Shown here piece by piece: positions 34,676 to 51,631 of a stretch of DNA of 64,000 nucleotides. A program made the position numbers and the translations under genes. This DNA comes from Peredibacter starrii (GTDB lineage: Bacteria > Bdellovibrionota > Bacteriovoracia > Bacteriovoracales > Bacteriovoracaceae): the NCBI RefSeq assembly GCF_034259205.1, contig NZ_CP139487.1, positions 1,798,001 to 1,862,000 on the forward strand, read 5' to 3'. Numbering within the stretch: position 1 is the stretch's first letter; every line of letters starts with the position of its first letter. The notes below the pieces were generated by a model. It ran no database searches. It was not told where the DNA came from and saw nothing but the letters and a program-made list of their open reading frames with translations.

Positions 34676-35236
34676 TTATGGTTTAAGGTATTGAAAATAG
34701 GAACCCAGAAGCTTCGCCTGGGCTTCATCTGTCCAGCGGTCTCCGAGGTGCAGATGTCTTTCCGGTACGATGCCGTACTTTCCTTTAAGAATCTCGGAAA
34801 TCCTAGGGTGAGGTTTAAGTTCCTGGGTCTCTTTTAAGCAATCGATGACAGTACCTTCTAGGCCCAGTTTTCTGAGCTTCACGGCACCTCCGTGATCGGT
34901 TAGAAAGTAGACGTCCTTCTGGAGTGAACGAAGCCAAAGACGAAGTTCAAGCGGGACCAGTGTTTCATCCAAAAGTGATTCGAGATAGGTCTCAAATTCA
35001 GCAACGTCAGAAGGAAGAATCTCAACCATCTGACCTTTACGGCGGTTCTCCCATTTCTTTCTGATTTGAAGAAAGCGCAGAGAGCGAATTGGTGAGCGGA
35101 AAAAGTTTTTTCTCCAACGAGCTTCCACCGTTTTCAAAGGATAAAGTGTTCCATCGATATCAAAGGATACCGAACGAATCTCGTGAGCTTCGATAAAGAG
35201 ACTCAGCTCTTTTAATTTATCGGAGAGGCTTTTCAT
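34676..35236 (-). CDS. HAD-superfamily hydrolase
   Basis: 186 aa. Motif I is SFDIDGTLYPL (Asp26 nucleophile, Asp28 acid/base), motif II FLTDHG, the Lys region ELKPHP, and motif III HLGDRWTDEAQAK. The insertion between I and II is helical (RRKGQMVEILPS), a C1-type cap. HAD phosphatases of this size dephosphorylate small metabolites. It is the last gene of the desaturase-acyltransferase-GH3 operon; its ATG lies 20 nt inside the GH3 gene, so translation is coupled. This suggests that the pathway makes or releases a phosphorylated intermediate (inference). Confidence 0.8.
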   Translation of the reverse strand: MKSLSDKLKELSLFIEAHEIRSVSFDIDGTLYPLKTVEARWRKNFFRSPIRSLRFLQIRKKWENRRKGQMVEILPSDVAEFETYLESLLDETLVPLELRLWLRSLQKDVYFLTDHGGAVKLRKLGLEGTVIDCLKETQELKPHPRISEILKGKYGIVPERHLHLGDRWTDEAQAKLLGSYFQYLKP

Positions 35237-36650
35237 AAAGTGGCATGACCTTAAACTGTGATTCCCATTTTACTTTTTGACCCATGAGTTCCGCAAAGGC
35301 AGAAACACTAAGGGCCTCAACCTTCAGTGGCAACAAACGACCTGACTGAATTTTAGAGCTGTATTCCGAATTAATCGAACACAGAATTTCGTTCGCAGCT
35401 ACTTCAAGTTGGGGGAACTCTTTCTTTGGTCCAATTAAATTCAAAACGTATTGGGCCTGATCGCCAAGCATGCGGCCATATAATGAAAGGTAAAGGTCTT
35501 CCAGACCAAAACGTTTTCGTAGTTTCTGATAGAGAAGAAGGCACTGATCTTCAGAGATTTTCTCTCCTGTCATTGAGGCCGTGACATTTCTTCGACGTTT
35601 GAAGCGAAGGTCAGGTAGCCCATTCACAAAACCAACAACTTCAAATTCATCCTGAGTATCGTATCGATCAAGTCCCCAAATGTCGCTGATAATAAGAGTG
35701 TAGGTCTCATTTACTTCCAATTCGCGAACGATCTCTCCGTCTTTTAAAAACTCTGGCGCCACACCTTTCATCGTCGGAAGAAAATGCAATTTCCCTTTCA
35801 CGCGATGAGGGAGAGTCTCGATGGTTTCTGTGCTCATCGAATACATCGGAATGAAAACTAGTTTCGGATATTTCTCTCGCAGTCTTTCCAGAAAAGGGGC
35901 CACGTAACCACCGTCCCAGGTAATCATACCTATGAGATCAGGAGCGAGCGCCTCAAGAGAAAATTTCTCTTCTTGGATGAGTTTTTCTAAACGCTGAGAA
36001 CCATCAGTGAGACGCAGGAGTTCTGAATTCTTTAAACACTTCTTTAAGCTCTCTCGAATGAGGGGCCATTCATTTTGAACTTCATCTAAAAAATGCGTCA
36101 GAGTTGAAGGATTGGTGGCGTAGAAAAATCGAGGAGAGGTCACCGCAATAAGTGCCACTCGGGTTGAAAGAAGACCAATTTCGCGACGAAGTTGATGGCC
36201 CGCGGGAGTGGTCAGAAAACGGTAAGGGGCCTGCAAGAGCTCCACCAAATTTGGTTCCTTGTCTTGAAGCATACCTGAGGTAAGAGATGAATCATCGTCT
36301 ACCGAGGAAAAGACAAAGAAGGTCTTTCGTCCTCTATAAGGAGAAGTCAAAGTGATCATACTTTTAAGAAACGTTTTCTGCACGAGTTTCATTCGAGTGG
36401 CAGTGTAGGGAACGGTCTTCGGAACATTTCTCGTGCCGGAGGTTTGTGCAATAAAGATTTTCTCACCGCTTTGGCGGGCCATTCTTTGGAGGCGCTCTTT
36501 TTGATTTTCAAACCCAGAGGGCATAGTATTGGAAGAGAAGTGATTGTTCCGCTTACGTACGAGCCAATTTTCTACCTGAATGACTTTCGCCAAGAAAAAG
36601 AAAACAATTCGTAAGAGTTCTCTTAGAAAAGCATTACGAATCGAGTTCAT
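35217..36650 (-). CDS. GH3-family acyl-acid amido synthetase
   Basis: 477 aa from ATG 36650 (AGGA upstream; the frame is open another 25 codons). Matches GH3 auxin-responsive-promoter family proteins, adenylate-forming acyl-acid amido synthetases: AQTSGTRNVPKTVPYT (ATP P-loop-like motif), TLTSPYRGRKTFFVF, and the central FIPMYSMSTETIETLPHR with VNETYTLIISDIWGLDRYDT. Plant GH3s conjugate jasmonate, auxin or benzoates to amino acids; bacterial ones have unknown substrates. Operon partners (desaturase, acyltransferase, HAD phosphatase) suggest activation or amidation of an unsaturated fatty acid. It overlaps the upstream gene by 17 nt and the downstream HAD gene by 20 nt. Confidence 0.83.
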   Translation of the reverse strand: MNSIRNAFLRELLRIVFFFLAKVIQVENWLVRKRNNHFSSNTMPSGFENQKERLQRMARQSGEKIFIAQTSGTRNVPKTVPYTATRMKLVQKTFLKSMITLTSPYRGRKTFFVFSSVDDDSSLTSGMLQDKEPNLVELLQAPYRFLTTPAGHQLRREIGLLSTRVALIAVTSPRFFYATNPSTLTHFLDEVQNEWPLIRESLKKCLKNSELLRLTDGSQRLEKLIQEEKFSLEALAPDLIGMITWDGGYVAPFLERLREKYPKLVFIPMYSMSTETIETLPHRVKGKLHFLPTMKGVAPEFLKDGEIVRELEVNETYTLIISDIWGLDRYDTQDEFEVVGFVNGLPDLRFKRRRNVTASMTGEKISEDQCLLLYQKLRKRFGLEDLYLSLYGRMLGDQAQYVLNLIGPKKEFPQLEVAANEILCSINSEYSSKIQSGRLLPLKVEALSVSAFAELMGQKVKWESQFKVMPLYEKPLR

Positions 36651-37677
36651 GGAGAATTTCCTGAAACTCAGATTGAAATTTATCAAGAAGCTCCTGAGCA
36701 TCTTTTCTTGCAACCGTTTCATCAAAGGTCAGTGTCACGTAAGTCTGATTATCTTTAGTAAAAGCAAAAATACCTCCATGATGTTTTTCATGAAGGTTTG
36801 TAATGCCATAAAGGGTCTTTATTCCCCTAAATCGATTCAGGCGATCTTCCAGATGAGAAAGAGAGATCGTTCCCCAATCGGCCCAAGGTCGGTTAAGCCA
36901 AAGTTTCAAAAGTTTTTGATTGAGGGGAGTGAGATTCAATGTCAGAGGCGGAAGAGCAACTTCACCACTATGGAAGGCCTCAATCTTCTGACGTCGGATG
37001 TGCTTCAATTCTTCTCTAAGTGTTATCTTCTTTCGACTTGGATAAAGTCTCATGCGTGATAATCCATTTCCAAATCCCTGCCAAAAAATCTTTCGGACAT
37101 TCACTGGGATCCAAAGGGCCTTAGCACGATGAGGTAGGCTGCGAAGTAGGGCGAGGCTCAAGATATCATTCAGGACGAGCCCTTCCGGAAGTTCCGGGTG
37201 AGTCAGTGTCAGAGTAATAAACTGCCGTTTGTCGGTTACTGCGAGATGATTCATCCACCCCTTCGTGGGAAGAACATTTCTGTAAGGCGAATCTTTTTTA
37301 GGCGGAAGTTTTCGATAGGCAATTTCACCTTCAATACCATGGCCCGTAAGCAGGACCTCGAGAAAAAGGAGCATAGATAGAGCATCACCCAGATAGTGAG
37401 ACATCTTCAGTGCGAGGGTCTTCTCATGAATGATTCCCAACTCAAGTTGAAATTTATCCTGAAGAGGGACAAGTGAGAATTCTTCGAGAGAATGATAAGT
37501 ATTAAGGAAAACCGGAAATTTATTCGTCTCAGGATAAAGCTTCTGCGCGATCTGAATCCGCTCAAGGATTAATTTCTGTGAGGGAATCGTGGTCAACTCA
37601 ATGGCAATGATACAATCCATTCTGCGAATGGAACCGGCACCCAGCTCAATGAGATCACTTAAAAGCCTCGATCTCAT
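36634..37677 (-). CDS. Condensation/CAT-fold acyltransferase-like protein
   Basis: 347 aa. Contains HYLGDAL with His94 and Asp98, the HxxxD(G) active-site pattern of the CoA-dependent acyltransferase superfamily that includes NRPS condensation domains, CAT, PapA and WS/DGAT enzymes. The glycine of the usual HxxxDG is Ala here, and the preceding residue is Ser rather than the second His of the strict HHxxxDG. A C-terminal strand TKDNQTYVTLTFDETV matches the family's DFG-like region. It is expected to transfer an acyl chain to an amine or alcohol. ATG 37677 overlaps the desaturase stop by 4 nt. Co-operonic with GH3 and a fatty-acid desaturase. Confidence 0.68.
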   Translation of the reverse strand: MRSRLLSDLIELGAGSIRRMDCIIAIELTTIPSQKLILERIQIAQKLYPETNKFPVFLNTYHSLEEFSLVPLQDKFQLELGIIHEKTLALKMSHYLGDALSMLLFLEVLLTGHGIEGEIAYRKLPPKKDSPYRNVLPTKGWMNHLAVTDKRQFITLTLTHPELPEGLVLNDILSLALLRSLPHRAKALWIPVNVRKIFWQGFGNGLSRMRLYPSRKKITLREELKHIRRQKIEAFHSGEVALPPLTLNLTPLNQKLLKLWLNRPWADWGTISLSHLEDRLNRFRGIKTLYGITNLHEKHHGGIFAFTKDNQTYVTLTFDETVARKDAQELLDKFQSEFQEILHELDS

Positions 37678-38441
37678 AATCGGATGATGTCGCGTTTAAA
37701 CACCGGTCCTTTTTTAATATAAGGACGAAGCTGCAGCCAACCCAAGTGCGGCCTCATATGATGAGCTCGGTGCATAGAAAGACCGAGCGTGAACCAATAC
37801 ATGAGTGCTCCATGATAATCATGCGAGCGTACTTCCTGTGGTCCAACTTCATGCCCTTCGTGGGTCTTAACTGCGAAAGGGTACCAGAGTAAAAAAGAAT
37901 TCAGGATCTGCGCTGGTACGAGTCCTAAGAGCACGCGCTCCCATCCTACGAAATAAGAAATAGTTCCAAAAATAGCGAAGTAGACCACGTAGCTTAGAAG
38001 AATTTCTAAAATCACCGACTGAGAAAGCAAAGAATTGTTTTTAAGCCACATGATCCAGTGGTGAGGCATTGCAAGGGCCCTTCCCGGAAACTGCCACCAG
38101 TGATCCATCTTTAATAAGAGATCCGGATCTTTTCCATCCTCATTAGTAAATGAATGATGATAGCGATGAGTGATTCGAAATTGAGCATTTGGAACCGCGA
38201 TAGGGATAAAGCTTATTCGCCCCCACCAGATGTTTTGAAGTTTAGTGTCTCCTAAAACTCCATGCGAAGCTTCGTGTCCCATTACTCCACATAAAAAAAG
38301 GAGGTAAGCACGAAAAAGGACATCCAGAATCCAAAGGGCCCCGGTTGGAGTCCAGAAGTATTGGGCAAGCGAAACCACCACCAGAGCGATGATAATTCCA
38401 CGATTGATAACGATATTTTGAAGGCGTTCCAGTTTTTGCAT
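37674..38441 (-). CDS. Membrane fatty-acid desaturase
   Basis: 255 aa with about four membrane helices and the three histidine clusters of the membrane desaturase/hydroxylase family: HEASH (His56-60), HRYHH (His92, 95, 96) and HRAHH (His224, 227, 228). The di-iron centre introduces a cis double bond or hydroxyl into an acyl chain. Short relative to typical 300-350-aa acyl-lipid desaturases, closer to beta-carotene hydroxylase- or small desaturase-type members. First gene of the (-) operon; TAGAGT ends 7 nt before the ATG with no SD. Possible substrate: the acyl chain used by the following acyltransferase and GH3 enzyme. Confidence 0.85.
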   Translation of the reverse strand: MQKLERLQNIVINRGIIIALVVVSLAQYFWTPTGALWILDVLFRAYLLFLCGVMGHEASHGVLGDTKLQNIWWGRISFIPIAVPNAQFRITHRYHHSFTNEDGKDPDLLLKMDHWWQFPGRALAMPHHWIMWLKNNSLLSQSVILEILLSYVVYFAIFGTISYFVGWERVLLGLVPAQILNSFLLWYPFAVKTHEGHEVGPQEVRSHDYHGALMYWFTLGLSMHRAHHMRPHLGWLQLRPYIKKGPVFKRDIIRL

Positions 38442-38519
38442 GGGCCGGACTCTACCATGAGAGGCAATTCAAGGGCCTTACGCTGTATTTTTAACACAAC
38501 CCGCTATAAAAATCGGGTC

Positions 38520-38548
38520 TTTACAATAAGATAGGAAGCGAATAGGAT
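38520..38548 (+). promoter_or_regulatory. Candidate promoter of the TonB receptor gene
   Basis: TTTACA (38520-38525), 17 nt, TAGGAT (38543-38548). The predicted start falls directly on the operator-like repeat that follows. Confidence 0.45.
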
Positions 38549-38550
38549 AA

Positions 38551-38569
38551 TTGCAAATGACTTGCAAAT
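38551..38569 (+). promoter_or_regulatory. Operator-like tandem TTGCAAAT repeat
   Basis: TTGCAAAT occurs at 38551-38558 and 38562-38569, exactly 11 bp (one helical turn) apart, each with a palindromic TTGCAA core. It lies at or just after the expected transcription start of the TonB receptor. A binding site for the nearby Fur/Zur-type regulator is plausible but unproved. Confidence 0.45.
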
Positions 38570-38580
38570 TAGGGATACCG

Positions 38581-40563
38581 ATGAAAGCTACTGTAATTTT
38601 ACCTCTCGCTCTTTACGCCTCTTACTCACTTGCTCATGAAACAAAACTTGAAGAAATTGAAGTTATCGAACACGAAGAGACCCAAGGTCTCGTTGATTTC
38701 GTACCGAGTGTGACGAAGTTAACTGGTGCTGAACTTACAAAAAAACGTCAACCAAGTATTGGTGACACTCTCTCAAGTGAAGCAGGAATTCAAAGCACAC
38801 AATTTGGACCGAACGCCAGCCGTCCGGTGATTCGTGGTCTTGATGGAGATCGCGTTCGTATTCTTCAAAACAGCCTTGGTACTCTGGATGCTTCAACTCA
38901 GAGTTTAGATCACGCTATTCCAGTAGATGTTTTGACGATTGATCAGATGGAAATCGTTCGCGGGCCAATGAGTCTTCTTTACGGAGCTTCAGCGGTGGGT
39001 GGTGTAGTGAATCTCGTGACCAATCGTATTCACTATAATTATGAAGAGGGCTTCTTCTCGAAGTTTCTTGTTCAAGGCGAGACTGTTAATAACGGTCTAA
39101 GCTCGGCCGCTCATTTGAACTACGGTAAAGATAAGTGGATGTTCCATGTTGATGGTTCAACCAGAAATCTAGGTGACACTGAAATTCCGGGATACGCTCG
39201 TTCAAGTAAACTTCGTCAGACGGATCCTCAACCGAACGAAGCGAAAGATAAACTTCCTAACAGTTTTAACCAACAGGACAACATAGCCGTTGGTGTTTCG
39301 AAGATTTTTGATCGCGGATACGCAGGTGTTTCATTTAATCACTTCAATACTTTTTACGGTTCAGTTGCTGATCCTGAAGTAAGTATTGATATGACTCAAA
39401 ACCGTTTTGAATTTCACGGTGAATACCGTCCGGAGTCTTCTTCAATTCGTAAGATTAAATTGAAGTCGGCCCAGTCTGATTATTTCCATAAAGAGCTTGA
39501 AGGTTCTGAAACAGGAACCGTGTTCCGTAACCGCGGAAATGAAACTCGCCTCGAAGGTATTAACAAAAACGGGAATGTTCGTGGAGTTTCAGGGATTCAA
39601 ACTCAAATCTTTAATTTCAGCGCTAAAGGTGAGGAAGCTTTCCTTCCGACTTCCGACAATACAAAGCTTTCTCTCTTCACTTTCCAGGAAATTGATTACG
39701 GGAAAAACGCGCTTCGTTTTGGTGCTCGTTTAGAAAACTCTGATATCAAGAAAAAAGCGTCTGACAACTTTGGCCCAAGTGATGAGAAGAGCTATCTGGG
39801 AATGAACGCTTCTCTAGGTCACTGTTATGATTTCTCTAAGTCAAATACACTTGAGACGTCTCTTTCATATACTGAGAGAGCGCCAAACTTCCAGGAACTC
39901 TATGCTAGTGGTGCTCACCTTGCGACTGGGATTTTTGAACAAGGGGATTCGCAGTTAACGAAAGAGAAGGCGACAGCAGTTGAAGTGACTTATAAAAGCC
40001 GTACGGACAAAAACCAATTCACGGCCAGTGTTTACTCTCAAGTATTCAAAAACTACATTGCTTTAAATCCTACCGGTGTAGTGGATGTAGATAGCGGTCT
40101 TTTTATCTCTGAATACGATCAAGTAGATGCTTTGTTCTACGGTCTTGATCTTGATAACAAGAGCGAGCTTAAAAAGACTGATAAAGGTGCCATTAACCTT
40201 ATTGGTAAGTTTGACTTCGTTCGTGCAAAGAACACGGATGATGGTTCAAACCTTCCACGCATTTCTCCGCCAAGAGTAACTGCGGGTCTTGAGTACGCGA
40301 CTGATAAGTGGACTGTGGATGGGGAAGTTCAGTACGTTGCTGAACAGACTAAGACAGCTCCAAACGAAACAAGAACTGCTGATTACACGCTGACAAACAT
40401 TGGTTATAGCTACAATATCGTTGGAAACCTGACATCACTTAATCTCTTCGCACGCGTAAGAAACCTATTTGATGTGGAAGCACGTAACCACGTCTCAACG
40501 CTTAAAGATATTGCTCCACTTCCTGGACGCAACTTTATCGCAGGCGCTCAATTTCAATTCTAA
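38581..40563 (+). CDS. TonB-dependent outer-membrane receptor, ZnuD-like
   Basis: 660 aa from ATG 38581, where a signal peptide starts (MKATVILPLALYASYSLA). A TonB box (EIEVIEHEE) and plug domain (GDTLSSEAGIQSTQFGPNAS, RPVIRGLDGDRVRILQNS, DQMEIVRGPMSLLYGASAVG) are followed by a 22-strand barrel ending in aromatic F (GAQFQF). Similarity in style is closest to ZnuD/zinc receptors, though the His-rich loop of Neisseria ZnuD is absent. It faces, tail to tail, a Fur-family gene with a His-rich arm. A metal (probably zinc) import role across the outer membrane is supported by this context. The promoter has an operator-like tandem repeat. Confidence 0.88.
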   Translation: MKATVILPLALYASYSLAHETKLEEIEVIEHEETQGLVDFVPSVTKLTGAELTKKRQPSIGDTLSSEAGIQSTQFGPNASRPVIRGLDGDRVRILQNSLGTLDASTQSLDHAIPVDVLTIDQMEIVRGPMSLLYGASAVGGVVNLVTNRIHYNYEEGFFSKFLVQGETVNNGLSSAAHLNYGKDKWMFHVDGSTRNLGDTEIPGYARSSKLRQTDPQPNEAKDKLPNSFNQQDNIAVGVSKIFDRGYAGVSFNHFNTFYGSVADPEVSIDMTQNRFEFHGEYRPESSSIRKIKLKSAQSDYFHKELEGSETGTVFRNRGNETRLEGINKNGNVRGVSGIQTQIFNFSAKGEEAFLPTSDNTKLSLFTFQEIDYGKNALRFGARLENSDIKKKASDNFGPSDEKSYLGMNASLGHCYDFSKSNTLETSLSYTERAPNFQELYASGAHLATGIFEQGDSQLTKEKATAVEVTYKSRTDKNQFTASVYSQVFKNYIALNPTGVVDVDSGLFISEYDQVDALFYGLDLDNKSELKKTDKGAINLIGKFDFVRAKNTDDGSNLPRISPPRVTAGLEYATDKWTVDGEVQYVAEQTKTAPNETRTADYTLTNIGYSYNIVGNLTSLNLFARVRNLFDVEARNHVSTLKDIAPLPGRNFIAGAQFQF

Positions 40564-41030
40564 GACTTAGAACATTTGGAACAAACACCGGTGAACTCAA
40601 GCCGGTGTTCCATATCTTTGAAACCCAGTTTTGCAATGGCCTTCTCAAAGGGGCCCAGATCACAGTGTTCGATGGACTGAATGTCCCCGCAAACGCGGCA
40701 ACGAACATGATGGTGGTGATGGTGATGATGATCGTGATGATCATGCTTGTCCTGAACCAATTCATAACGAAAGAAACCTTCGTCTAAATTTACTTCGTGG
40801 ACCAAGTGCTTTTCTTTGTACTGAGTGATACTGCGGAAAACGGTTGAAACGTCACAGGTCTCATCCAGTTTCCCGTGAATTTCTGGAACGGACAGGGGCT
40901 TCTGAGATTCAGAAAGAATCTGAAGGATCTTGATCTTCACCTTGGTCCTATTGAGACCCTTCTCGGTCAGTAGATCCTTAGCGGCCGCTTCAGTTAAATG
41001 TTCATGTCCACAATTTTTTCCCATGGCCAT
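40560..41030 (-). CDS. Fur/Zur-family metalloregulator with His-rich insert
   Basis: 156 aa. A winged helix (RTKVKIKILQILSESQKPLS, ...CDVSTVFRSITQYKEKHLVHEV) is followed by a metal/dimerisation domain with a run of about ten histidines (DHHHHHHHHV), then CRVC and CSKC pairs that should bind structural zinc. This is the pattern of Zur-type repressors. Divergent from the CPA antiporter and convergent (4-nt overlap) with the TonB receptor. ATG 41030 is used because a -10 TATAAT ends 8 nt before it; ATG 41024 with AAGG upstream is the alternative. It probably senses Zn2+ and controls the TonB receptor. Confidence 0.88.
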   Translation of the reverse strand: MAMGKNCGHEHLTEAAAKDLLTEKGLNRTKVKIKILQILSESQKPLSVPEIHGKLDETCDVSTVFRSITQYKEKHLVHEVNLDEGFFRYELVQDKHDHHDHHHHHHHHVRCRVCGDIQSIEHCDLGPFEKAIAKLGFKDMEHRLEFTGVCSKCSKS

Positions 41031-41053: not shown

Positions 41054-42115
41054 ATGAAACAAATTCTTGGCGGGGCCCTCCTGCAACTCATCATGGGTGC
41101 TCTTTTGAAAGCGTTTGCTCCAGTATCTTGGGGGCTTGAAGGCCTTTTGGGGTGGAGTTCTTATACGGTCATCGGATTATTCTTGATGGTGGGACTTCAG
41201 ATTCACCTGAAGAAATTTGCCAAGGACTTAGGACTTTGTGCCGTTCTGGTTCTAGTGACGACTTTGGTTCCCATGGTGTTTTTCTATTACATGGGCCTGG
41301 GATTTGGCCTGGATCACTTAGGGTCTCTCACGGTAGCGGTGGTTCTCACAACAACAGGCACCGGTGTTACCATTCAAACTCTTTTAAATCTTGGCATGCT
41401 TCATTCGCGGGCCGGCCAATTTCTAACTCTCGTTTCGGCCTTGGATGATATTCCGGCCACGATGTTTATGACTTACTTATTATTTCAAAATAAGACAGAG
41501 GTTGTGACGACCAGCGGTTCTGGCATTGAACTCTATCTGATTGCAGGCGCGGTGGTGAGTTTTGTGTTTATTCATCTCGTGAAGAATCGCTGGGGACTTT
41601 CGCTTTTATTTTTGATCTTCTCAATCTGTGTCGCAAAATTTCTAGAAGGTCATCATGTTTCGGCGGTGATGGGTGGGTTGTTTGCAGGATTTTTCTTGTC
41701 CTTCATCCTGGGTGATAAAGTGGATATCACTGAAGAACCACTGGATAAAATGCTAAAACCTCTTTTGCCTTTCTATATGATCTTCATCGGTATGAAACTT
41801 TCACCGGAAATTCTCACGAGTTCCCGTGCCCTTATTATGTCGGTGTCACTTGTCGTTGTGGCGGTGATTTCAAAATACGTTTGCACCTATTATCTCATGA
41901 AAAAGAGAGAGGACCTAAGTCCTAAAGTCATTTCATGGGGAATGGTTCCTCGGGGAATTCCGGGATTTGCTTTCGCTTCGGCATCAGTCGCGGGTGGACT
42001 TATCTCGCAGGAGACTTTTACGATTCTGGTGCTTGTGGTTTCAGTTTCAACCTGGATCGGTCTTCTTGGTCTTGAAGTCACACTAAGGGATAAAGTACTC
42101 CGCCACACCACCTAG
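41054..42115 (+). CDS. CPA2-type cation:proton antiporter
   Basis: 353 aa with about 11-12 hydrophobic segments. The family motifs TTTGTGVTIQTLLNLG and SALDDIPATMFMTYLL are present; the Asp-Asp pair in the latter is the ion-binding DD motif of electrogenic antiporters. The C-terminal GMVPRGIPGFAFASASV resembles the last conserved helices. Slightly short for Na+/H+ exchangers (usually 380-430). It should exchange Na+ or K+ for protons across the inner membrane. Divergent from fur with a shared -10; 33-nt convergent overlap with the giant cadherin gene. Confidence 0.85.
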   Translation: MKQILGGALLQLIMGALLKAFAPVSWGLEGLLGWSSYTVIGLFLMVGLQIHLKKFAKDLGLCAVLVLVTTLVPMVFFYYMGLGFGLDHLGSLTVAVVLTTTGTGVTIQTLLNLGMLHSRAGQFLTLVSALDDIPATMFMTYLLFQNKTEVVTTSGSGIELYLIAGAVVSFVFIHLVKNRWGLSLLFLIFSICVAKFLEGHHVSAVMGGLFAGFFLSFILGDKVDITEEPLDKMLKPLLPFYMIFIGMKLSPEILTSSRALIMSVSLVVVAVISKYVCTYYLMKKREDLSPKVISWGMVPRGIPGFAFASASVAGGLISQETFTILVLVVSVSTWIGLLGLEVTLRDKVLRHTT

Positions 42116-45100
42116 ACCGTTTTGTTCGAACGCGAAGATGATTGAACGATTAGTAGGGTTGAAGTCCATGCTTCGACCTTTACAGTTAAGGTTGGTCATA
42201 CTCCACGCCAGATTGCCCATGTCGGTTTGGGTTGTGATGTTATAGCGACGGATTCGTCCAGAGTTACAGTAGTAGAAATTTTCCACTCCATCCAGCTTAA
42301 CATACACGAAACTGTCATCAATATTGTTCGAGGTCGAACCGATCTTCTTGATATTTCCTGCTTGAGTAAATTCATAGATATCTTTCTGAGTACCACCATT
42401 CACGATGGCCGTGATCCATCTTAAATTTTCACTGTCCCATTGGAAGCGGAAGAATGTGTCCCAGTATGGCATTTCACAGTTTGCAGCACTGGTCGAAGTG
42501 GTGGCATCACATGTGCGACGATCGTTACTATCAGCAGGGAAACCTAAGACCCCGGCGATATGAGACTGGCGGAAACCATCGTTTGCATCATAAGACTTGA
42601 CCATAAAGTCTTCATAACGATTTAGGGTCGTATTAATTCTCATTCTGGTCATCATGAGTTGGTTGTTACCAAAGCCCATAATGAGACCACGGTTAAGGAA
42701 GTTACCGTTGTTAGCGGCAACGTTTAGGCCCAACTCATTATCCGCCGATGCATAATGAACACCAGTCGTACTACCTATAACGTTTTCAAACTTTCCTGTT
42801 GCACGGTTAAGTTTAAGTGTGAAACCGTAACCTGAACTTGCCTGAGATATATAAACATCTCCGTTGACTCTGTTTACGTCCATCCAGCTTGTATCAACAA
42901 CACTATAAGTGTTAGCGTCGACCGCCGTGTTTGAGCCTCGTGAGGCACCGTCACCTGCAATAATATTAATATTGCCTTCGATCGTGAATTCCTTCACGTA
43001 GTAACCACCAACATCGTTGACGATGATTTTTCCGTTGTTAAGTCTGTGCACGCGGGTCACTTCACTAAAGCGGGCATTCAGAGCATTGACGGCGTTACCA
43101 TAGGTCAATCTCTGACCAAAGAGGGACTTCACTTTTCCATCACTATCAATGGTCCTTATTACTCCACGGTCGGTGAAGTACATTTTTCCTGTGCTAGTAA
43201 CAAAGAAGTTCTGAATATCAATCATACAGGCCGTTGCTAAGGTTCCATCAGCACATTCACCTCTGGTACCCTGGCCGAGAATACGTGTGTACGTACCGTC
43301 GAAATTGATTCGGTTAATAAATGAGCGGGCACCTGAAACGTAAGCAATACCGTCCATACCGGTGTAATTCATGTAAGTGTATGAACGGTGAAGGTCATCC
43401 TTGGGAGCGATGGCCTCAAAGGTAATTGGGTCGTAATAGGCACGGGCATAACGATCATCAATCTGATTACAACCTGGGAAAGAGAGGTCATGAAGTGTCG
43501 TTGCTGTTACTCCTGTGAGTTGAGAATTCAAAGGATCAAAAGCGATACCGGGATGAAGCACTCGACAGAGCGAAAGATCCTGGGTGCTCACATAAGAGTC
43601 ACCAATACCAGTGAGGTATTTAGAAATAACCTGGCCGGTACCGGCCTTATAGATACGTATACGATAAGTTGCTGTGGTATTCGGTTTATAGGCCAATTCA
43701 GAGTTAAAGTAGATGTCACCGTTTGGTGTTGCAAAGAACACCATACTCGAGGCCGACCAATCACCATTTGTCGCGTGAGAGTAAATGCTCACGTCTCTTG
43801 GATTTGGAACAGTGTCTGAGGTAACAGCACCACCACCAATGATAGTTTCAATTGTTGGAGTTGATAAATTCAGATCAACACGGCGGATGCGGTCGCGGTC
43901 CATGATAAGAAGTCGGTTCTGATAATCCAGAGTGATTTTTACCGGATATTTTAGCGTGGCATTCACTGCCGGACCACCGTCACCAGAGCTGGTTCCAGTT
44001 GTTGGAATGAAGATCTTCTGTTTACCGTCGGATTGATCAATGGTGATAATTCCGCGCTTATAATCGGCAAAGTAGAATTGACCATCATCTGTTACAACGA
44101 TCGTTCCTGGATCGGTATAATCTGACAAGCGACGAGTAAAGAACATGGCAGTCTGTGCTGATCCACCAAGACCAGATTCAGAGTTACCGGCGATGATCTT
44201 GATTAACCCGGCGTTTAGTGGGTTAGAGATCAATTGATTTGAAACGTCACCGGCATCAGTTACTTTCACTCGGATTTTATATGAAGTATTAAGTGGAGAT
44301 CCACCTGTCCATTTATAACAGCCTTCATTTGCTCCAAGAGTCACTCCGGTACAACCGTAGTTGGCGTTGTTTAACCCAGACACGAACTGAGTGAAGTTGA
44401 TCTCATCCGGAGTATAAGAAAGTGATATCGCGCCGGCCGGAAGAGTAATGTTATCAGTTGCTTTCCAACGGATGAAAACATCTGAACCGGCCGGAACTTC
44501 AGACTGAGCTCTGGTTGGAGGGATAGGTGAGTTTGCAATGTTAGCGGCGGCCACGTCCCAAACAGTTGGTGGAATTCCTGGATCATAAGAGTGATTGATC
44601 TTATCTGTTGATTCAGTTCCCGCACCTGAGTTTGAGATATTAGAGATGTTACCGGCCTCATCTTTTACCCAGACAAAAATATCATAGGTCTTTGGTGTCC
44701 ATCCAATTAGGATTGAATAATTTGAAAGACTCAAGGTCTGGGTCAGAACTTTACCAATAACTGGACCATTGATGGCGATGAAACATGAATCATCTGCCGC
44801 TGGTTGAATTGATAAATCTGATTTCACACAAACATGAGAAAGATATACATCCACGTTCTGAGAAGTCGCGGTGATGTTGACTGGAATATAACTTGAACGA
44901 GATGGATCCGCGGCCGTCGTTGTGAACGCACTAACAGTTGGAGCATTTGTTTCACGAATCCAGGTCCCCACGACAGTGGTTGAGTTAAATGGAGAAACTG
45001 TGAAGGCCTGCTTAAAGGTATAAGCACGAGTGGCGTCAGTTGCATTCGATGCTGTCGTGAAAGACCAGTTACCGGCCGTACAAGTAGCAGTCGTCGTTTG

Positions 45101-48100
45101 AGCACCGGTGACGTTAATGGTGTAACCATTTTCACATGTACCAGTGAAAGTCACAGTATTGGTATTTGTTTTAAGAAGAGCAGTATTAATCTTCAATGCT
45201 GGACCGGTGGTATCGCGGGTCCAGTTAAAGATGATTTGAGCAGTATTACCGGCAGAATCGGTTTGTTTAATGGTGTAAGAGCGAAGGCCATCAGTTGTCA
45301 CAGTTGGAGTGGTCCATGACCAGCTTGAGGCCGAACATGAAATGGTATCAGTGGCGGCACCGGTGATTACGATTGGGTTTGTGCCTTCACAGGTCCCAGT
45401 GAAAGTAAGAGCACTTAAGTTATTAGTGAGTGCCTTCGTTTGACCAGTGCTCGCCGCTACTGGGTTAGTGGTAGTGAAGTTTGGAGGAGTCGCATCGCGA
45501 GTCCAGGCAAGTGTTAGTGGAGGAGTCGAAACGTTACCAGCAGCGTCCGTTTGAACTAAGTTATAAGAATATGTGCCATCCACTGTTTTTGAACCTGGTG
45601 TCCAGGTCCATGTACCACTGGTACAAGCAAAAGTCGTTGTCTGCGAACCTGACACTGAAATAGTGTAATTGCCTTCGCAAGTACCACCCCAGGCGTTTGG
45701 TATGTTGTTTTTCGTAAAGTCAGGTGAGTTACCAGTTGTTTTTGTAATGACCGGGGCAACTTCATCACGGATAAGGTTGCGACTAACAGTGGTGACGTTT
45801 CCTACTGCATCCGTTTGAGATACAGTAATTGTTTTGTTACCATCACCATCTGAGAAGTTCACCGTTTGAGAATAAGTCCCACCAGAACATGTGATACTAA
45901 AATCAGCTTGAATACTTCCAGTGAAAGAAATGCTTCTGCCCGTCTCACAAGCACCGGTAATGGTGGCCTGAGTTTTATGATAAGAATTCACGGCCGGAGC
46001 AGTAATCGTTAAAACCGGAGGAGTGGAGTCGATCGCAAAAGCGGTCGAAGTCACGGTATTGGTATTACCAGCTCGGTCAGTGAAACTCACTCTGAACTGA
46101 GCGGCAGCAGTAGTTACCGATGGCACCGTCCATGAACGGGTAAAAGCAGTGGCACTTAAAGATGGACCTGCAGTGGATGCAGTTGTTCCTACGGTTGACC
46201 AGGCAGTTCCGTTATAGGCCTCAACCGTAAAATTAAGTGACGCTGTTGTATAAGTCTCGGTTGCGGTCCACGCCAGAGAATATGTCGCTCCACCTTGAAG
46301 AGTCGGAGGAAGAGTTAAACTCATGGTTGGAAGAACTGTATCGTAATAAATCGTAAAATCAGTTGAAGTCAGAGACACGTTACCATAAGAATCCTTCGCC
46401 CAAACTTTTACAGTGTGTGCACCTTGAGTTGTTCCCATGGTGTAAGTAATGGCATTGGCCGTCGTGCTACAAGTTTGCCATCCGGCCGCTCCCGCAGTTG
46501 GGGCCGCGCCTTCATTCACAAAAAGCGAAGGCGTATCCGTACACGAAGTAGCGGTGAAGGTCACTCCCGTTACTTTTGTATACTGAGGAGAGGTAAGAGT
46601 TAATAGAGGCGCAGGAGCAGCGGTCTTATCGTTGACCGTAATAGTGACTGTCGCTGGTGTGACCGCATTGGCGATAGTGTCGTAGGCCACGAAGGTAAAG
46701 CTGTCGGTGCCATTGAAGTTAGCGTTCGAGATATAATTACAAGTCAGATCCGTCCCGTATGAACCAGTTGTAATACAGCCAGAAAGAGTACCGTTGGCCG
46801 GAGCCGTCACAATTTTATAAGTAAGTGCACCACCATCAATATCTGTGGCCGGTGAAAGAGTGATCGCCAGGTTTGTATTATCATTTGTTGTAAAAGTTTG
46901 GTTGGCCGCCATGACTGGTGGATCATTCACTGGAGTCACCGTAATGGTCACTGTGGCAGTATTTGAATTCGCTGAACCATCATTCACGCGATAAGTGAAA
47001 GTGTCTGTTCCATTGAAGTTCGCGTTCGGAGTATAAGTACAGGCACGACTTGTTCCGCCCGTACAGGTCAAAGTTCCGTTTGCTGGATCTGTGAGTTTGA
47101 CATAAGTAAGAGTGTTCCCCTCAATATCGGTACCGGCATTAAGAGTAATATTAAGAGCTGTGTCCTCGGCGGTTGTCACACTTTGAGTGGCGGCAACGGT
47201 TGGTGCATCGTTAACGGCCGCAATATTAAATGTGATTGTCGCTGTCGTTGTCGATTCTAATAGTGAGTCATAGACCTTGTAAGTCAATGTATCCGTGCCG
47301 TTCACGTTAGCATTCGGGGTGTAATCACAAACTCTATCAGTTGTATAAGAACCCGTGACAATACAATTTGAAAGTGTTCCTTTTGTCGGAGCAGTAATTA
47401 AAATATACGAGAGTGTTTGGGCCGGAACATCAATGTCAGAACCTGCGTTGATAGTGAAGGAAGCAGGAGTATCTTCAGTCACTGCCACAGATTGGTTAGC
47501 ACCTGGAACTGGTGGATCGTTAATAGGGGTCACAGTAATAGTAACAGTGGCAGTCGTTGAAGAAAGAGCTCCATCACTTACGTTATATGTAAATGTATCG
47601 GTGCCATTAAAGTTTGCATTTGGGGTATAGGTACAGGCGCGGCTTGTTCCACCAGTACAAGTTAAAGTTCCATCAGTTGGATTAGTAAGTTTCACATAAG
47701 TGAGTGTCGTTCCTTCGACGTCAGCGCCGGCATTGAGAGTAATACTAAGTGCTGTATCTTCATTGGTTGAAACTGATTGAGTTGCACCAAGAGTTGGAGC
47801 ATCGTTTACCGGAGTAATATTAATGGTAATTGTCGCAAGGCCAGTTGAGTCCACCAGACCATCATTGGCGCGATAAGTGAAGGTGTCAGTGCCATTGGCA
47901 TTGAGATTCGGAGTATAAGTACAGTTCCTCACTGTTCCATAGGCCGCATCTGTAATACAACCAGATAGAGTACCTTTCGTTGGGTTTGAAATGATTTTGT
48001 AACCAAGAGTCTGGGCCGGAACGTCCACATCCGTCGCGGTATTGATCGTAAAGTTCGCGGCCGTATCTTCATTGGTTGTAATGGTCTGATTCGCGCCAAT

Positions 48101-51100
48101 CACTGGAGGATCGTTATCGCCTGCGACGGTGATGGTTACAGTTGCGATCGTTGAATCAAGAGATCCATCATTCACTTTATAGGTGAAGGTCGTCGAACCA
48201 TCAAAGTTTAGGTCTGGTGTAAAAGTACAGGCCGTGCTGGTTCCACCAGTACAAGTAAGTGTTCCATCTGCAGGTTGCGAGACGATGATATAGGTAAGGG
48301 GATTGCCTTCCACGTCTGTACCTGGATTCAGGTTGAAGTTAAGAGCAGTATCTTCTGGAGTTGAAAGACTCTGAGTCGCGGCCAGTGTTGGAGCATCGTT
48401 AACGGCCGCAATATTGATGGTGATGGTCCCATTTGAAACGGAATCAGTTACTGAATCATAGACCTTATACGTAAAACTATCAGTACCCGTGGCATTTAAT
48501 GTCGGTGTATAAACGCAAGTGAGATCATTGCTGTAACTTCCGGCCGTAATACAGCCGGAAAGAGCTCCTTTAGTTGGAGCAGTTACGAGTTTATAAGACA
48601 GAGTCTGGGCCGGAACATCCACATCAGAGCCGGAGTTAATCGTAAAATTAAGAACGGTATCTTCATTGGTGGCCAAAGTTTGGTTGGCCGCGGGAACCGG
48701 CGGATCGTTTACTGGATTAACTGTAATCGAAACCGTTTCAATGTTTGAAGATAAAGTGGCGTCGTTTGCCTTGTAGGTGAAAGAATCAGCACCATTGTAG
48801 TTAAGTGCTGGAGTGTAAGTACAAGAAGTATTGGTTCCAGTACATGTTAAAGTTCCGTGGGCCGGTGGCGTGACGACACTATAAGTAAGAGCATCGTTTT
48901 CGGTATCAGAACCTGCAAGAAGAGCAAAAGTCAGGGCCGTATCTTCATTCGTACTGATACTTTGCGGACCAGGGAGTGTTGGCGCATCGTTAATCGCCAG
49001 TACTGTAACATTCACAGTTCCGATATTAGAGTCGGCGGTGGCATCATTAGACTTGATAGTGAACGTATCGTTCCCCGCGTAGTTTGTCGTTGGGGTATAA
49101 GTACAAACGTAGTCCGAAGTTACTGTCTGACAATTCGAGATCACCCCATGAAGTGGAGAGCTCACTACCGAGTAGGTTAAGAAGTCACTATCAAGGTCAC
49201 TAATCGGTCCAAAGTTAATTTGCACCGGAGTATCTTCCATCGTGGTTTTAGTTTGTGTTGCAATCACTTGTGGAGGATTATTAGTTGATTGCATAGTCAG
49301 TGGTGTAGAGAAAGTATCATTACCACAAGTGATGGTGGCACTTGCAGTTCTTGTTCCTTTTAGGGCCGGTTTGGCCTTAAGACCAACTGTACATCCAGCA
49401 GTTCCGATGGTTGTTCCATTACAGTTATCATCAGTGATTATGAACTCAGAAGCATTTGTTCCAACGATGGTCACTGGTCCACAAAGCTTGGTATTAACCG
49501 CACCAGAGTTGGTAAACTCAAGGATGAACACAGTACTCTCTGACTTATTTAACACCTGCCCCATATCCATATTGAGTGGATTAGAGCCAAGGATAGGGCG
49601 TTGAATTTCAAAAGCAGGGGACTCCTTAATCGTTTGGTGCCCAAGTGTATCTGTATAAGTGATTTTTAATTTGGCAGCACTCGTGTTGATATTCGGAATA
49701 TGAAAATTGGTTCTGAACTCAGTTTCGTCGTGAGGTCCATTAGAAACATTCACTGCCGGAAGGTTTGCCCAAGTTGAACCATCAAAGAACTGAATATTAA
49801 AGAACTGAGAGCTTGCAGAGTTTCTTTCAGTCAGAGTCCATTTAAACTCCGAGTCTTCGTCTGAAATAAATCCTAGTTGCATATCCAGGAATTCAATAAC
49901 TGGAGCAGTAGTATCCAGTTCAACTGTGAGTGTACTTGGAACGGGAGATACTCGATCGGCAGCGTCCTTACTCCAGAGCTTAAGCGTAATTGGTCCATCC
50001 GCCGCAGTGGTAAGAGTGTGGTTCACTAATTGAACAGGTCCACTTTGACAGCTTAATGTGAAATCACCATCAACTGGCAGGACATCATTTTCAGTAATAG
50101 CGAGTTTACTGAAAGATTCACAGGCCGAATAAACTGAATCCACCAAAGCACCTGTATTCATGTTTAAAACAAGTGAACGTGTATCAGATGGATTATTTGA
50201 GGCGGCATTCAAGGCAAGTGCCGGTGGAAGTGAAGGACGACCATCAGTCACTGCCACATTGAATTTCACTTCATGATAAGGCATTGAACGATCTACGAGA
50301 TCGTCACTTGAGTTCTTCGAGCCGATAATTAAAGTGATTTCCTGATTGGCGCGACTGTTGGCCGAAGGTGTATACGTCCAATCCGCAGTCGTCGCAAAAA
50401 CTTCACCATCAACTTGCCACTCGTAAGCGACAGTATATTGCGTGTTCCAGTGGAAAGTTTTAACTCCATAATTGACAGGAATCATTTCAGTCACGCTGGC
50501 CGTAAGTGAAATTTCATTCACGTCAGGTGCTGCTTCAGTTAATTCGTTAACAGCACCACCCTGAAAAGTAGATTGGAAATCTGACTTAAGGGCATTCTCG
50601 TTAAAGATAATGTCATAGACTCGTTCAAAGTCATCTGCCGGAAGAGAGCGTTTGCTGATTTCGTTATACAGATTTTCAATGGCGTCAGCTGTGGTGTTAG
50701 AAAGAGCACCGGCAATTCTTGTGTTAACAACTTTCGATACCAGAGTCGTGGTCTGATCGAGGTTTTGATCTTTATAAAAACTAGAGATGATTCGCTGATA
50801 GTTGATCTCACAGCCCTTGGTCTCAAGCATGTACCGGTTTGGAGTTTTAAGATCTAGATTTAAATCTACTGGATCGAAATCAAACGTGGTGGCACCTCCA
50901 AGATTTGCTTCCTTCACAGGTCTGTCTCTTAAAACAGACATATCTGTTAGATCGAGAAGAAGAACTCTTGGATTCGTACAGTTATTGGCATAGGCCTCAT
51001 CAATGAGGGCCAGAGGTGATCGATAAGCGATAATTCCCACCAAAGGGGTGACCTTACCTTTTAAGTAAGGTGTCACTGTTTTGCTGGAAGTAGGAGAAGT

Positions 51101-51631
51101 TTCAGTTGTCGTAGTAGAGGAACCAGTTGTGGTCCCAGTTGTTTGAGAGGTACCAGGGTAGCCCACATTTGAAAACGACATACCTGGCATACTTGTACCA
51201 GTCGTGGTTTTTGATGTATCAGTGTTTGATGTCGTTCCAGATTTTTCTGGGTTCGAGTAAGACCGAGATACAGAAGGAGCAGAGTAGCTTCTGCCTGAAT
51301 CTGAAATACTCACACCAGGTGCTTTTATGAGTTCTTTTTCATCTTTCTCAAATTTCTCATCTTCATCTTTGCGACGACTTTGCTCAGAGTTTGAAACATG
51401 ATTTGAAATGAAATTTCTTTTTGCGATTTCTGGATTTATTAGCTCGCGTTTCTTAGCTGCGGGACTGCGATAAGTTTTGATGGTTTGACCAGCGACCTTA
51501 AGTGAATACTCGTACTCAACTTCGCTATTACTTACGTTAGGCGGAGGCCTGCGTGTGAAAAAAAAATATCCGCTTAAACCAGTGATGGCTATTAAGGTGC
51601 ACGGGATAAGGTATTGTTTCAACACGCTCAT
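42083..51631 (-). CDS. Giant cadherin-like/Ig-like surface protein with C-terminal NHL-like propeller
   Basis: 3182 aa. An N-terminal helix (about 7-25) anchors it in the membrane or directs export; no lipobox. Residues 90-190 are Ser/Thr-rich. An ASH/choice-of-anchor-D-like domain lies at about 690-775. Nine cadherin-like domains (about 785-1670) share the NDPP/NDAP junctions and TPNANFNGTDTFTY motifs, and alternate between two length classes. Bacterial Ig-like repeats (GTCENGYTINVTGAQTTT-type) follow to about 2480. The C-terminal 700 residues resemble NHL-type beta-propeller repeats (GDGGPAVNATLKYPVKITLD, LLIMDRDRIRRVDL). A calcium-dependent adhesin or surface fibre is inferred. Its 3' end overlaps the antiporter gene by 33 nt. 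Confidence 0.82.
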   Translation of the reverse strand: MSVLKQYLIPCTLIAITGLSGYFFFTRRPPPNVSNSEVEYEYSLKVAGQTIKTYRSPAAKKRELINPEIAKRNFISNHVSNSEQSRRKDEDEKFEKDEKELIKAPGVSISDSGRSYSAPSVSRSYSNPEKSGTTSNTDTSKTTTGTSMPGMSFSNVGYPGTSQTTGTTTGSSTTTTETSPTSSKTVTPYLKGKVTPLVGIIAYRSPLALIDEAYANNCTNPRVLLLDLTDMSVLRDRPVKEANLGGATTFDFDPVDLNLDLKTPNRYMLETKGCEINYQRIISSFYKDQNLDQTTTLVSKVVNTRIAGALSNTTADAIENLYNEISKRSLPADDFERVYDIIFNENALKSDFQSTFQGGAVNELTEAAPDVNEISLTASVTEMIPVNYGVKTFHWNTQYTVAYEWQVDGEVFATTADWTYTPSANSRANQEITLIIGSKNSSDDLVDRSMPYHEVKFNVAVTDGRPSLPPALALNAASNNPSDTRSLVLNMNTGALVDSVYSACESFSKLAITENDVLPVDGDFTLSCQSGPVQLVNHTLTTAADGPITLKLWSKDAADRVSPVPSTLTVELDTTAPVIEFLDMQLGFISDEDSEFKWTLTERNSASSQFFNIQFFDGSTWANLPAVNVSNGPHDETEFRTNFHIPNINTSAAKLKITYTDTLGHQTIKESPAFEIQRPILGSNPLNMDMGQVLNKSESTVFILEFTNSGAVNTKLCGPVTIVGTNASEFIITDDNCNGTTIGTAGCTVGLKAKPALKGTRTASATITCGNDTFSTPLTMQSTNNPPQVIATQTKTTMEDTPVQINFGPISDLDSDFLTYSVVSSPLHGVISNCQTVTSDYVCTYTPTTNYAGNDTFTIKSNDATADSNIGTVNVTVLAINDAPTLPGPQSISTNEDTALTFALLAGSDTENDALTYSVVTPPAHGTLTCTGTNTSCTYTPALNYNGADSFTYKANDATLSSNIETVSITVNPVNDPPVPAANQTLATNEDTVLNFTINSGSDVDVPAQTLSYKLVTAPTKGALSGCITAGSYSNDLTCVYTPTLNATGTDSFTYKVYDSVTDSVSNGTITINIAAVNDAPTLAATQSLSTPEDTALNFNLNPGTDVEGNPLTYIIVSQPADGTLTCTGGTSTACTFTPDLNFDGSTTFTYKVNDGSLDSTIATVTITVAGDNDPPVIGANQTITTNEDTAANFTINTATDVDVPAQTLGYKIISNPTKGTLSGCITDAAYGTVRNCTYTPNLNANGTDTFTYRANDGLVDSTGLATITINITPVNDAPTLGATQSVSTNEDTALSITLNAGADVEGTTLTYVKLTNPTDGTLTCTGGTSRACTYTPNANFNGTDTFTYNVSDGALSSTTATVTITVTPINDPPVPGANQSVAVTEDTPASFTINAGSDIDVPAQTLSYILITAPTKGTLSNCIVTGSYTTDRVCDYTPNANVNGTDTLTYKVYDSLLESTTTATITFNIAAVNDAPTVAATQSVTTAEDTALNITLNAGTDIEGNTLTYVKLTDPANGTLTCTGGTSRACTYTPNANFNGTDTFTYRVNDGSANSNTATVTITVTPVNDPPVMAANQTFTTNDNTNLAITLSPATDIDGGALTYKIVTAPANGTLSGCITTGSYGTDLTCNYISNANFNGTDSFTFVAYDTIANAVTPATVTITVNDKTAAPAPLLTLTSPQYTKVTGVTFTATSCTDTPSLFVNEGAAPTAGAAGWQTCSTTANAITYTMGTTQGAHTVKVWAKDSYGNVSLTSTDFTIYYDTVLPTMSLTLPPTLQGGATYSLAWTATETYTTASLNFTVEAYNGTAWSTVGTTASTAGPSLSATAFTRSWTVPSVTTAAAQFRVSFTDRAGNTNTVTSTAFAIDSTPPVLTITAPAVNSYHKTQATITGACETGRSISFTGSIQADFSITCSGGTYSQTVNFSDGDGNKTITVSQTDAVGNVTTVSRNLIRDEVAPVITKTTGNSPDFTKNNIPNAWGGTCEGNYTISVSGSQTTTFACTSGTWTWTPGSKTVDGTYSYNLVQTDAAGNVSTPPLTLAWTRDATPPNFTTTNPVAASTGQTKALTNNLSALTFTGTCEGTNPIVITGAATDTISCSASSWSWTTPTVTTDGLRSYTIKQTDSAGNTAQIIFNWTRDTTGPALKINTALLKTNTNTVTFTGTCENGYTINVTGAQTTTATCTAGNWSFTTASNATDATRAYTFKQAFTVSPFNSTTVVGTWIRETNAPTVSAFTTTAADPSRSSYIPVNITATSQNVDVYLSHVCVKSDLSIQPAADDSCFIAINGPVIGKVLTQTLSLSNYSILIGWTPKTYDIFVWVKDEAGNISNISNSGAGTESTDKINHSYDPGIPPTVWDVAAANIANSPIPPTRAQSEVPAGSDVFIRWKATDNITLPAGAISLSYTPDEINFTQFVSGLNNANYGCTGVTLGANEGCYKWTGGSPLNTSYKIRVKVTDAGDVSNQLISNPLNAGLIKIIAGNSESGLGGSAQTAMFFTRRLSDYTDPGTIVVTDDGQFYFADYKRGIITIDQSDGKQKIFIPTTGTSSGDGGPAVNATLKYPVKITLDYQNRLLIMDRDRIRRVDLNLSTPTIETIIGGGAVTSDTVPNPRDVSIYSHATNGDWSASSMVFFATPNGDIYFNSELAYKPNTTATYRIRIYKAGTGQVISKYLTGIGDSYVSTQDLSLCRVLHPGIAFDPLNSQLTGVTATTLHDLSFPGCNQIDDRYARAYYDPITFEAIAPKDDLHRSYTYMNYTGMDGIAYVSGARSFINRINFDGTYTRILGQGTRGECADGTLATACMIDIQNFFVTSTGKMYFTDRGVIRTIDSDGKVKSLFGQRLTYGNAVNALNARFSEVTRVHRLNNGKIIVNDVGGYYVKEFTIEGNINIIAGDGASRGSNTAVDANTYSVVDTSWMDVNRVNGDVYISQASSGYGFTLKLNRATGKFENVIGSTTGVHYASADNELGLNVAANNGNFLNRGLIMGFGNNQLMMTRMRINTTLNRYEDFMVKSYDANDGFRQSHIAGVLGFPADSNDRRTCDATTSTSAANCEMPYWDTFFRFQWDSENLRWITAIVNGGTQKDIYEFTQAGNIKKIGSTSNNIDDSFVYVKLDGVENFYYCNSGRIRRYNITTQTDMGNLAWSMTNLNCKGRSMDFNPTNRSIIFAFEQNGLGGVAEYFIP
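46630..49272 (-). repeat. Nine cadherin-like repeats in a two-domain (about 594-bp) super-repeat
   Basis: Domain junctions (NDPP/NDAP codons) fall near 49272, 48986, 48704, 48395, 48110, 47801, 47516, 47209, 46922 and 46630. Intervals alternate at about 285 and 309 bp. The short type carries LTCTGGTSRACTYTPN, the long type DVDVPAQTLSY and a Cys-x-Thr insert. Confidence 0.75.

Follow-up and report, generated by a model that had tools for sequence, protein, structure and literature searches.

GH3-initiated lipid synthesis was described in 2025 in JBC: in the planctomycete Singulisphaera acidiphila, the GH3-like protein OlsH N-acylates ornithine with a free fatty acid at the expense of ATP, after which the alpha/beta hydrolase OlsI attaches a second acyl chain to the ornithine product by O-acylation (PMC12493201). 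In that study, OlsH was active only in extracts. Bacterial GH3s are widespread, and OlsH is the only one with an assigned reaction in the open-access literature that we searched. The locus considered here lies in a 64,000-nt stretch of Peredibacter starrii DNA (positions 1,798,001 to 1,862,000 of NZ_CP139487.1, hereafter the window; the genome is a single contig of 4.15 Mb) and contains genes for a desaturase/hydroxylase-like protein (DES), a putative acyltransferase (AT), a GH3-like enzyme (GH3), and a HAD phosphatase-like protein (HAD). Like the OlsH/OlsI(/OlsG) system, it combines a GH3-like first enzyme carrying three nucleotide motifs with a candidate second acyltransferase (PMC12493201). 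In contrast to that system, its GH3 is not matched by the OlsH model, its AT is of the HxxxD/condensation type whereas OlsI is an alpha/beta hydrolase, and the operon lacks an N-methyltransferase and adds a desaturase and a HAD phosphatase. No alpha/beta hydrolase of the OlsI type was found in the conserved four-gene unit, and identity with the OlsH/OlsI pathway was rejected on this ground and by the family models.

We propose, with a probability of roughly 45%, that the four genes form a single operon whose product would be a lipid-like acyl conjugate, made by a GH3-first aminolipid or acyl-conjugate pathway analogous to OlsH/OlsI. A compact conserved unit of four genes is a small testable case for the products of other GH3s, and its product would add a lipid or signal to the Bacteriovoracaceae, relatives of bacterial predators.

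Results

All four open reading frames are on the minus strand of the window and start with ATG: DES (37674–38441, 255 amino acids), AT (36634–37677, 347 amino acids), GH3 (35217–36650, 477 amino acids), and HAD (34676–35236, 186 amino acids). These coordinates agree with those of a preliminary description made from the sequence, and the overlaps that it reported, 4 nt for DES/AT, 17 nt for AT/GH3, and 20 nt for GH3/HAD, are exact. A longer alternative GH3 frame opens with TTG at 36725; the start near 36650 was preferred because it is supported by alignment with two orthologues. Judged by gene layout, the operon promoter is presumably located in the intergenic region (38442–38550, minus strand) between DES and a divergent gene for a ZnuD-like TonB receptor; a scan of the operon strand for sigma-70–like promoters found no site.

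Conservation of the set was assessed in 369 species-level genomes of the phylum, and a wider collection was scanned with degenerate patterns. In G084, a species of the same genus, all four genes occur in the order seen in the window, with identities of 70% (DES), 45% (AT), 46% (GH3), and 50% (HAD). The same order is found in a genome from another family of the phylum (G325), where the genes are split across two contig ends: contig C22 (L081) ends with DES (44% identity), AT (26%), and the N terminus of GH3, while the end of contig C370 (L123) carries the GH3 C terminus followed by HAD (29%). The GH3 portion on L123 ends with WESQFK.LPLY, which is common to the GH3 subfamily of the window, and we infer that the two contig ends belong together. 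The junction overlaps are tight in all three genomes and their values differ (4/17/20 nt in the window, 20/−3/26 nt in G084, and 4/4/4 nt in G325); therefore, coupling has been kept while the exact overlaps changed. The four genes are probably co-translated, and the earlier view that they are made together fits a real, conserved unit with tight junctions in three genomes. None of the genes flanking the other operon loci has a homologue shared with the window, and chance adjacency of the four genes is ruled out, since their order is maintained in three genomes whose flanking genes are unrelated. The preliminary description had named failure of the genes to co-occur and loss of the ATP-binding residues of GH3 as grounds for abandoning its reading; both were checked, and neither applies: the four genes occur together in three genomes, which belong to two families, and GH3 keeps all three nucleotide motifs (see below).

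Across the 369 genomes, DES orthologues are confined to the window genome, G084, and G325, with AT and GH3 adjoining each time, and strong HAD orthologues within the class occur only in the window genome and G084. A scan of the wider collection with the single GH3 gave no match, and one with a three-row GH3 alignment returned only two genus relatives. Plasmid searches yielded one distant Streptomyces GH3 (29% identity) and no desaturase. The survey thus found one three-genome set, in which two of the three genomes are incomplete. Its spread is narrow and patchy, yet the four genes behave as one inherited unit.

A possible remnant of the operon was detected in a further genome, G097, where GH3 stands alone and a DES fragment lies directly upstream on the same strand (L055:1832–1885, minus strand). 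The fragment, RIRATHRYHHCFTNED, matches the second histidine box of DES and scores 33.5 bits, compared to at most 26.6 bits in 300 shuffled queries. Searches of this genome, the assembly of which is 89% complete, found no AT and no HAD. The locus is best read as a decayed copy of the operon.

The GH3 of the window resembles acyl-acid amido synthetase–like adenylating enzymes: it scores above the cut-off with PF23571 and PF03321 (38.0 and 25.6 bits against 23.6), while PF23572 (19.3 bits) falls just below. The three nucleotide motifs, defined as in PMC12493201, are TSGTRNVPK (motif I, residues 70–78), YSMSTE (motif II, 270–275), and GLDRYDTQD (motif III, 326–334), and K467 lies within WESQFK. 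In 15 GH3s of the phylum, the TSG triplet, E275, R329-Y330, and D334 do not vary. An hmmsearch with a profile of GH3 and its two orthologues retrieved JAR1 (E = 1.3e-8). The AF2 model (pLDDT 79) was aligned by VIA-align to GH3.12 with a Z score of 23.0 (3.6 Å, 383 residues); Z scores with plant GH3s are mostly 21–23, while the best non-GH3 structures, PaaK-type ligases, reach 17.0. The enzyme is therefore predicted to have an amido-synthetase fold. While the fold is shared with the plant amido synthetases JAR1 and GH3.12, identity to them is ~17%, the plant SSGT/YGSSE/GLYRYxxGD motifs are divergent in the window GH3, with GLDRYDTQD as motif III, and the gene has a bacterial operon setting. By its fold, GH3 may also yield a thioester instead of an amide; the ANL superfamily also includes CoA ligases. 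The OlsH model (NF052613, cut-off 620 bits) did not match GH3 or its two orthologues at E = 1, its best score across the window genome was 12.8 bits at another locus, and orthology of GH3 with OlsH was rejected by this NCBIfam model.

The similarity to plant hormone amido synthetases, which are nearest to the GH3 model, raises the alternative of a diffusible small molecule, an N-acyl amino acid or an acyl ester (a signal, surfactant, or antibiotic) with one acyl chain, which AT would cap or release. Plant GH3s yield small conjugates, and patchy spread, here 3 of 369 genomes, is typical of accessory metabolites. However, the conserved unit includes no exporter, regulator, or thioesterase, and DES together with the WS/DGAT-like AT points to long acyl chains; we consider a small conjugate unlikely.

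The window AT has no Pfam match, and its assignment is based on relatives and on the predicted fold. Invariant positions include H94 and D98 (SHYLGD), ND (170–171), and FGN (202–204). The relatives in L080 and L081 match Condensation (7e-4 and 0.003), WS_DGAT_cat (0.006), and TIGR02946 (1.7e-6), and their Condensation and WS/DGAT matches fall at the HxxxD active site. The HHxxxDG site reads HHAIGDG and HHVLCDG in the relatives and SHYLGDA in the window AT, which keeps the catalytic His and Asp and has Ser in place of the first His and Ala in place of Gly. The WS/DGAT family models TIGR02946 and PF03007 did not match the window AT, and the L080 relative scores 27 versus 310 bits. The predicted AT model resembles condensation-fold chains (for the C-terminal part, Z = 10.8, root mean square deviation of 4.0 Å, 165 residues aligned); since its confidence is low (pLDDT 56), only the fold class was used. 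PDB sequence searches with AT and DES returned nothing usable. AT is thus indirectly assigned as a putative HxxxD acyltransferase related to the WS/DGAT-condensation superfamily, with which it shares the catalytic His/Asp, the ND and GN motifs, and, according to the low-confidence model, the fold; it differs from known members in being shorter, in its altered HHxxxDG site, and in falling below every family model. The family is not confined to the operon, since a distant AT relative in G348 (L080:6171–10121) lies amid genes for two FA_hydroxylases and an FA_desaturase with no GH3 nearby. An AT match in G362 was a short fragment of a different protein and was dropped.

The WS/DGAT matches of the AT relatives are also what a neutral lipid or wax pathway would predict. 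Here, GH3 would act as an acyl-CoA/ACP ligase, HAD would dephosphorylate a precursor to an alcohol or diacylglycerol, AT would esterify it, and DES would tune saturation. Triacylglycerol synthesis follows the same logic, a phosphatase step and then acyl transfer, and in the fold comparison PaaK-type CoA ligases rank second behind the GH3s. Yet the fold comparison favors GH3 enzymes (Z of 21–23 versus 17), and the WS/DGAT match is missing from the window AT itself, so we regard this alternative as more unlikely than a small conjugate.

HAD scores 24.1 bits against PF00702, just under the cut-off of 26.4, while its orthologues score 28.2 and 59.3 bits. The phosphatase motifs are DIDGT (residues 26–30), T113 (in FLTDHG), K141 (in LKPH), and GDRWTD (165–170). 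In the genus orthologue, each of the four catalytic motifs is either retained or changed conservatively, with Ser at the position of T113.

DES belongs to PF00487 both by score (62 bits, 9e-17; cut-off 29.7) and by its three histidine boxes, HEASH (56–60), HRYHH (92–96), and HRAHH (224–228), in keeping with a membrane di-iron fatty acid desaturase/hydroxylase-like protein. Residues H56, H60, H92, H95, H96, H224, H227, and H228 are invariant in the three orthologues. The nearest NCBIfam model is CrtR (NF045688), at 25.1 bits for the window protein and 52.4 bits for that of G325; these scores are far below the equivalog cut-off of 475 bits for a CrtR beta-carotene hydroxylase. Carotenoid tailoring, in which DES would be a CrtR-like hydroxylase/ketolase and AT would esterify the hydroxylated carotenoid with GH3-activated acids, is the least probable alternative. 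It gains some support from CrtR being the nearest model and from crtB-type genes, which all three operon genomes carry and which were absent from searches of the 89% complete genome of G097 with its decayed operon, but the CrtR scores are low, the carotenoid genes of the window genome (crtB, crtI, a polyprenyl synthetase, and two lycopene cyclases; L126:13622–15407 and L127:1–5022, across the contig origin) are ~1.8 Mb from the operon and have an FA_hydroxylase of their own, and GH3 and HAD, for which we know of no role in carotenoid esters, are left unexplained.

Discussion

Starting from the observed gene content and order, conservation of the unit, catalytic motifs, and GH3 fold, we infer all reactions, substrates, and the order of steps of the proposed acyl-conjugate pathway by analogy. 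In the first step, GH3 would use ATP to adenylate a fatty or other acyl acid and would then form an amide between its acyl group and an amine, which is probably an amino alcohol or an amino acid. AT would next esterify a hydroxyl of the product with a second acyl group taken from CoA or ACP, a role like that of OlsI carried out by an unrelated fold. DES would desaturate or hydroxylate an acyl chain. HAD would remove a phosphate from a phosphorylated amine substrate or intermediate, perhaps freeing the hydroxyl that AT acylates. The acyl-conjugate reading is weakened because the OlsH model misses GH3, the AT active site lacks its first His, and the AT superfamily is assigned indirectly; the crtB-type genes present in all three operon genomes also allow another substrate for DES and AT. 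It is tentative, and rather doubtful, that the operon provides another GH3-dependent way of making a double-acylated amino lipid, or makes an undescribed lipid class, by means of a non-OlsH GH3 together with a desaturase, a phosphatase, and an O-acyltransferase of the HxxxD type.

The product envisaged in the preliminary description was an unsaturated N-acyl or ester conjugate serving as a signal or lipid. An acyl conjugate or lipid is still the best reading, with both an N-acyl or ester linkage and unsaturation tentative; the nearest NCBIfam model of DES is a CrtR-type hydroxylase. The accompanying statement that no described pathway contains these four genes held in the open-access literature, itself weak evidence; the logic of the operon, however, has had a precedent since 2025, when GH3-initiated lipid synthesis by OlsH/OlsI was described (PMC12493201).

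Other GH3s of the phylum are closer to OlsH. Several are matched by the OlsH model at 69–120 bits, and four of these are fused to an OlsE-like hydroxylase. The fusions, found in several genera, join an OlsE-like ornithine lipid hydroxylase (116–173 bits) to an OlsH-like GH3 (69–86 bits) and are located at L059:4442–6913, L060:4698–7166, L061:892–3567, and L089:1348–3930, some of them adjoining enolase-like and methyltransferase genes. This architecture suggests a hydroxylated aminolipid step carried out by one protein. A second GH3 of the window genome lies near 4.12 Mb (L056:1128–9918) in a conserved cluster, also present at L066:1732–11057, with genes for Rieske oxygenases, an AurF-like protein, a ferredoxin, an FA_hydroxylase (OlsE-like in L066), a hexapeptide protein, and a short-chain dehydrogenase. 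An interpretation of this class-wide cluster as a sphingolipid (SPT/ACP) locus was discarded, since the Pfam matches are to Rieske, AurF-like, Fer2, FA_hydroxylase, and hexapeptide families. Because GH3s are fused to or lie beside OlsE-like hydroxylases, the combination of a GH3 with a membrane di-iron oxygenase, also seen in the window operon, recurs in the phylum. In contrast to the operon, the oxygenase of the fusions and clusters belongs to PF04116, their GH3s are ~20–25% identical to that of the window, and no HxxxD or HAD partner was seen at these loci. At least two other GH3 lineages of the phylum are thus linked to membrane di-iron oxygenases, with the window operon as a separate third.

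Upstream of the operon (38551–41030), the divergent ZnuD-like TonB receptor gene adjoins a gene for a Fur-family regulator that contains a histidine run, DHHDHHHHHHHH. Farther along the window (42083–51631), a 3182-residue adhesin-like protein with many similar repeats (NEDTAL...TFTYK...) is encoded.
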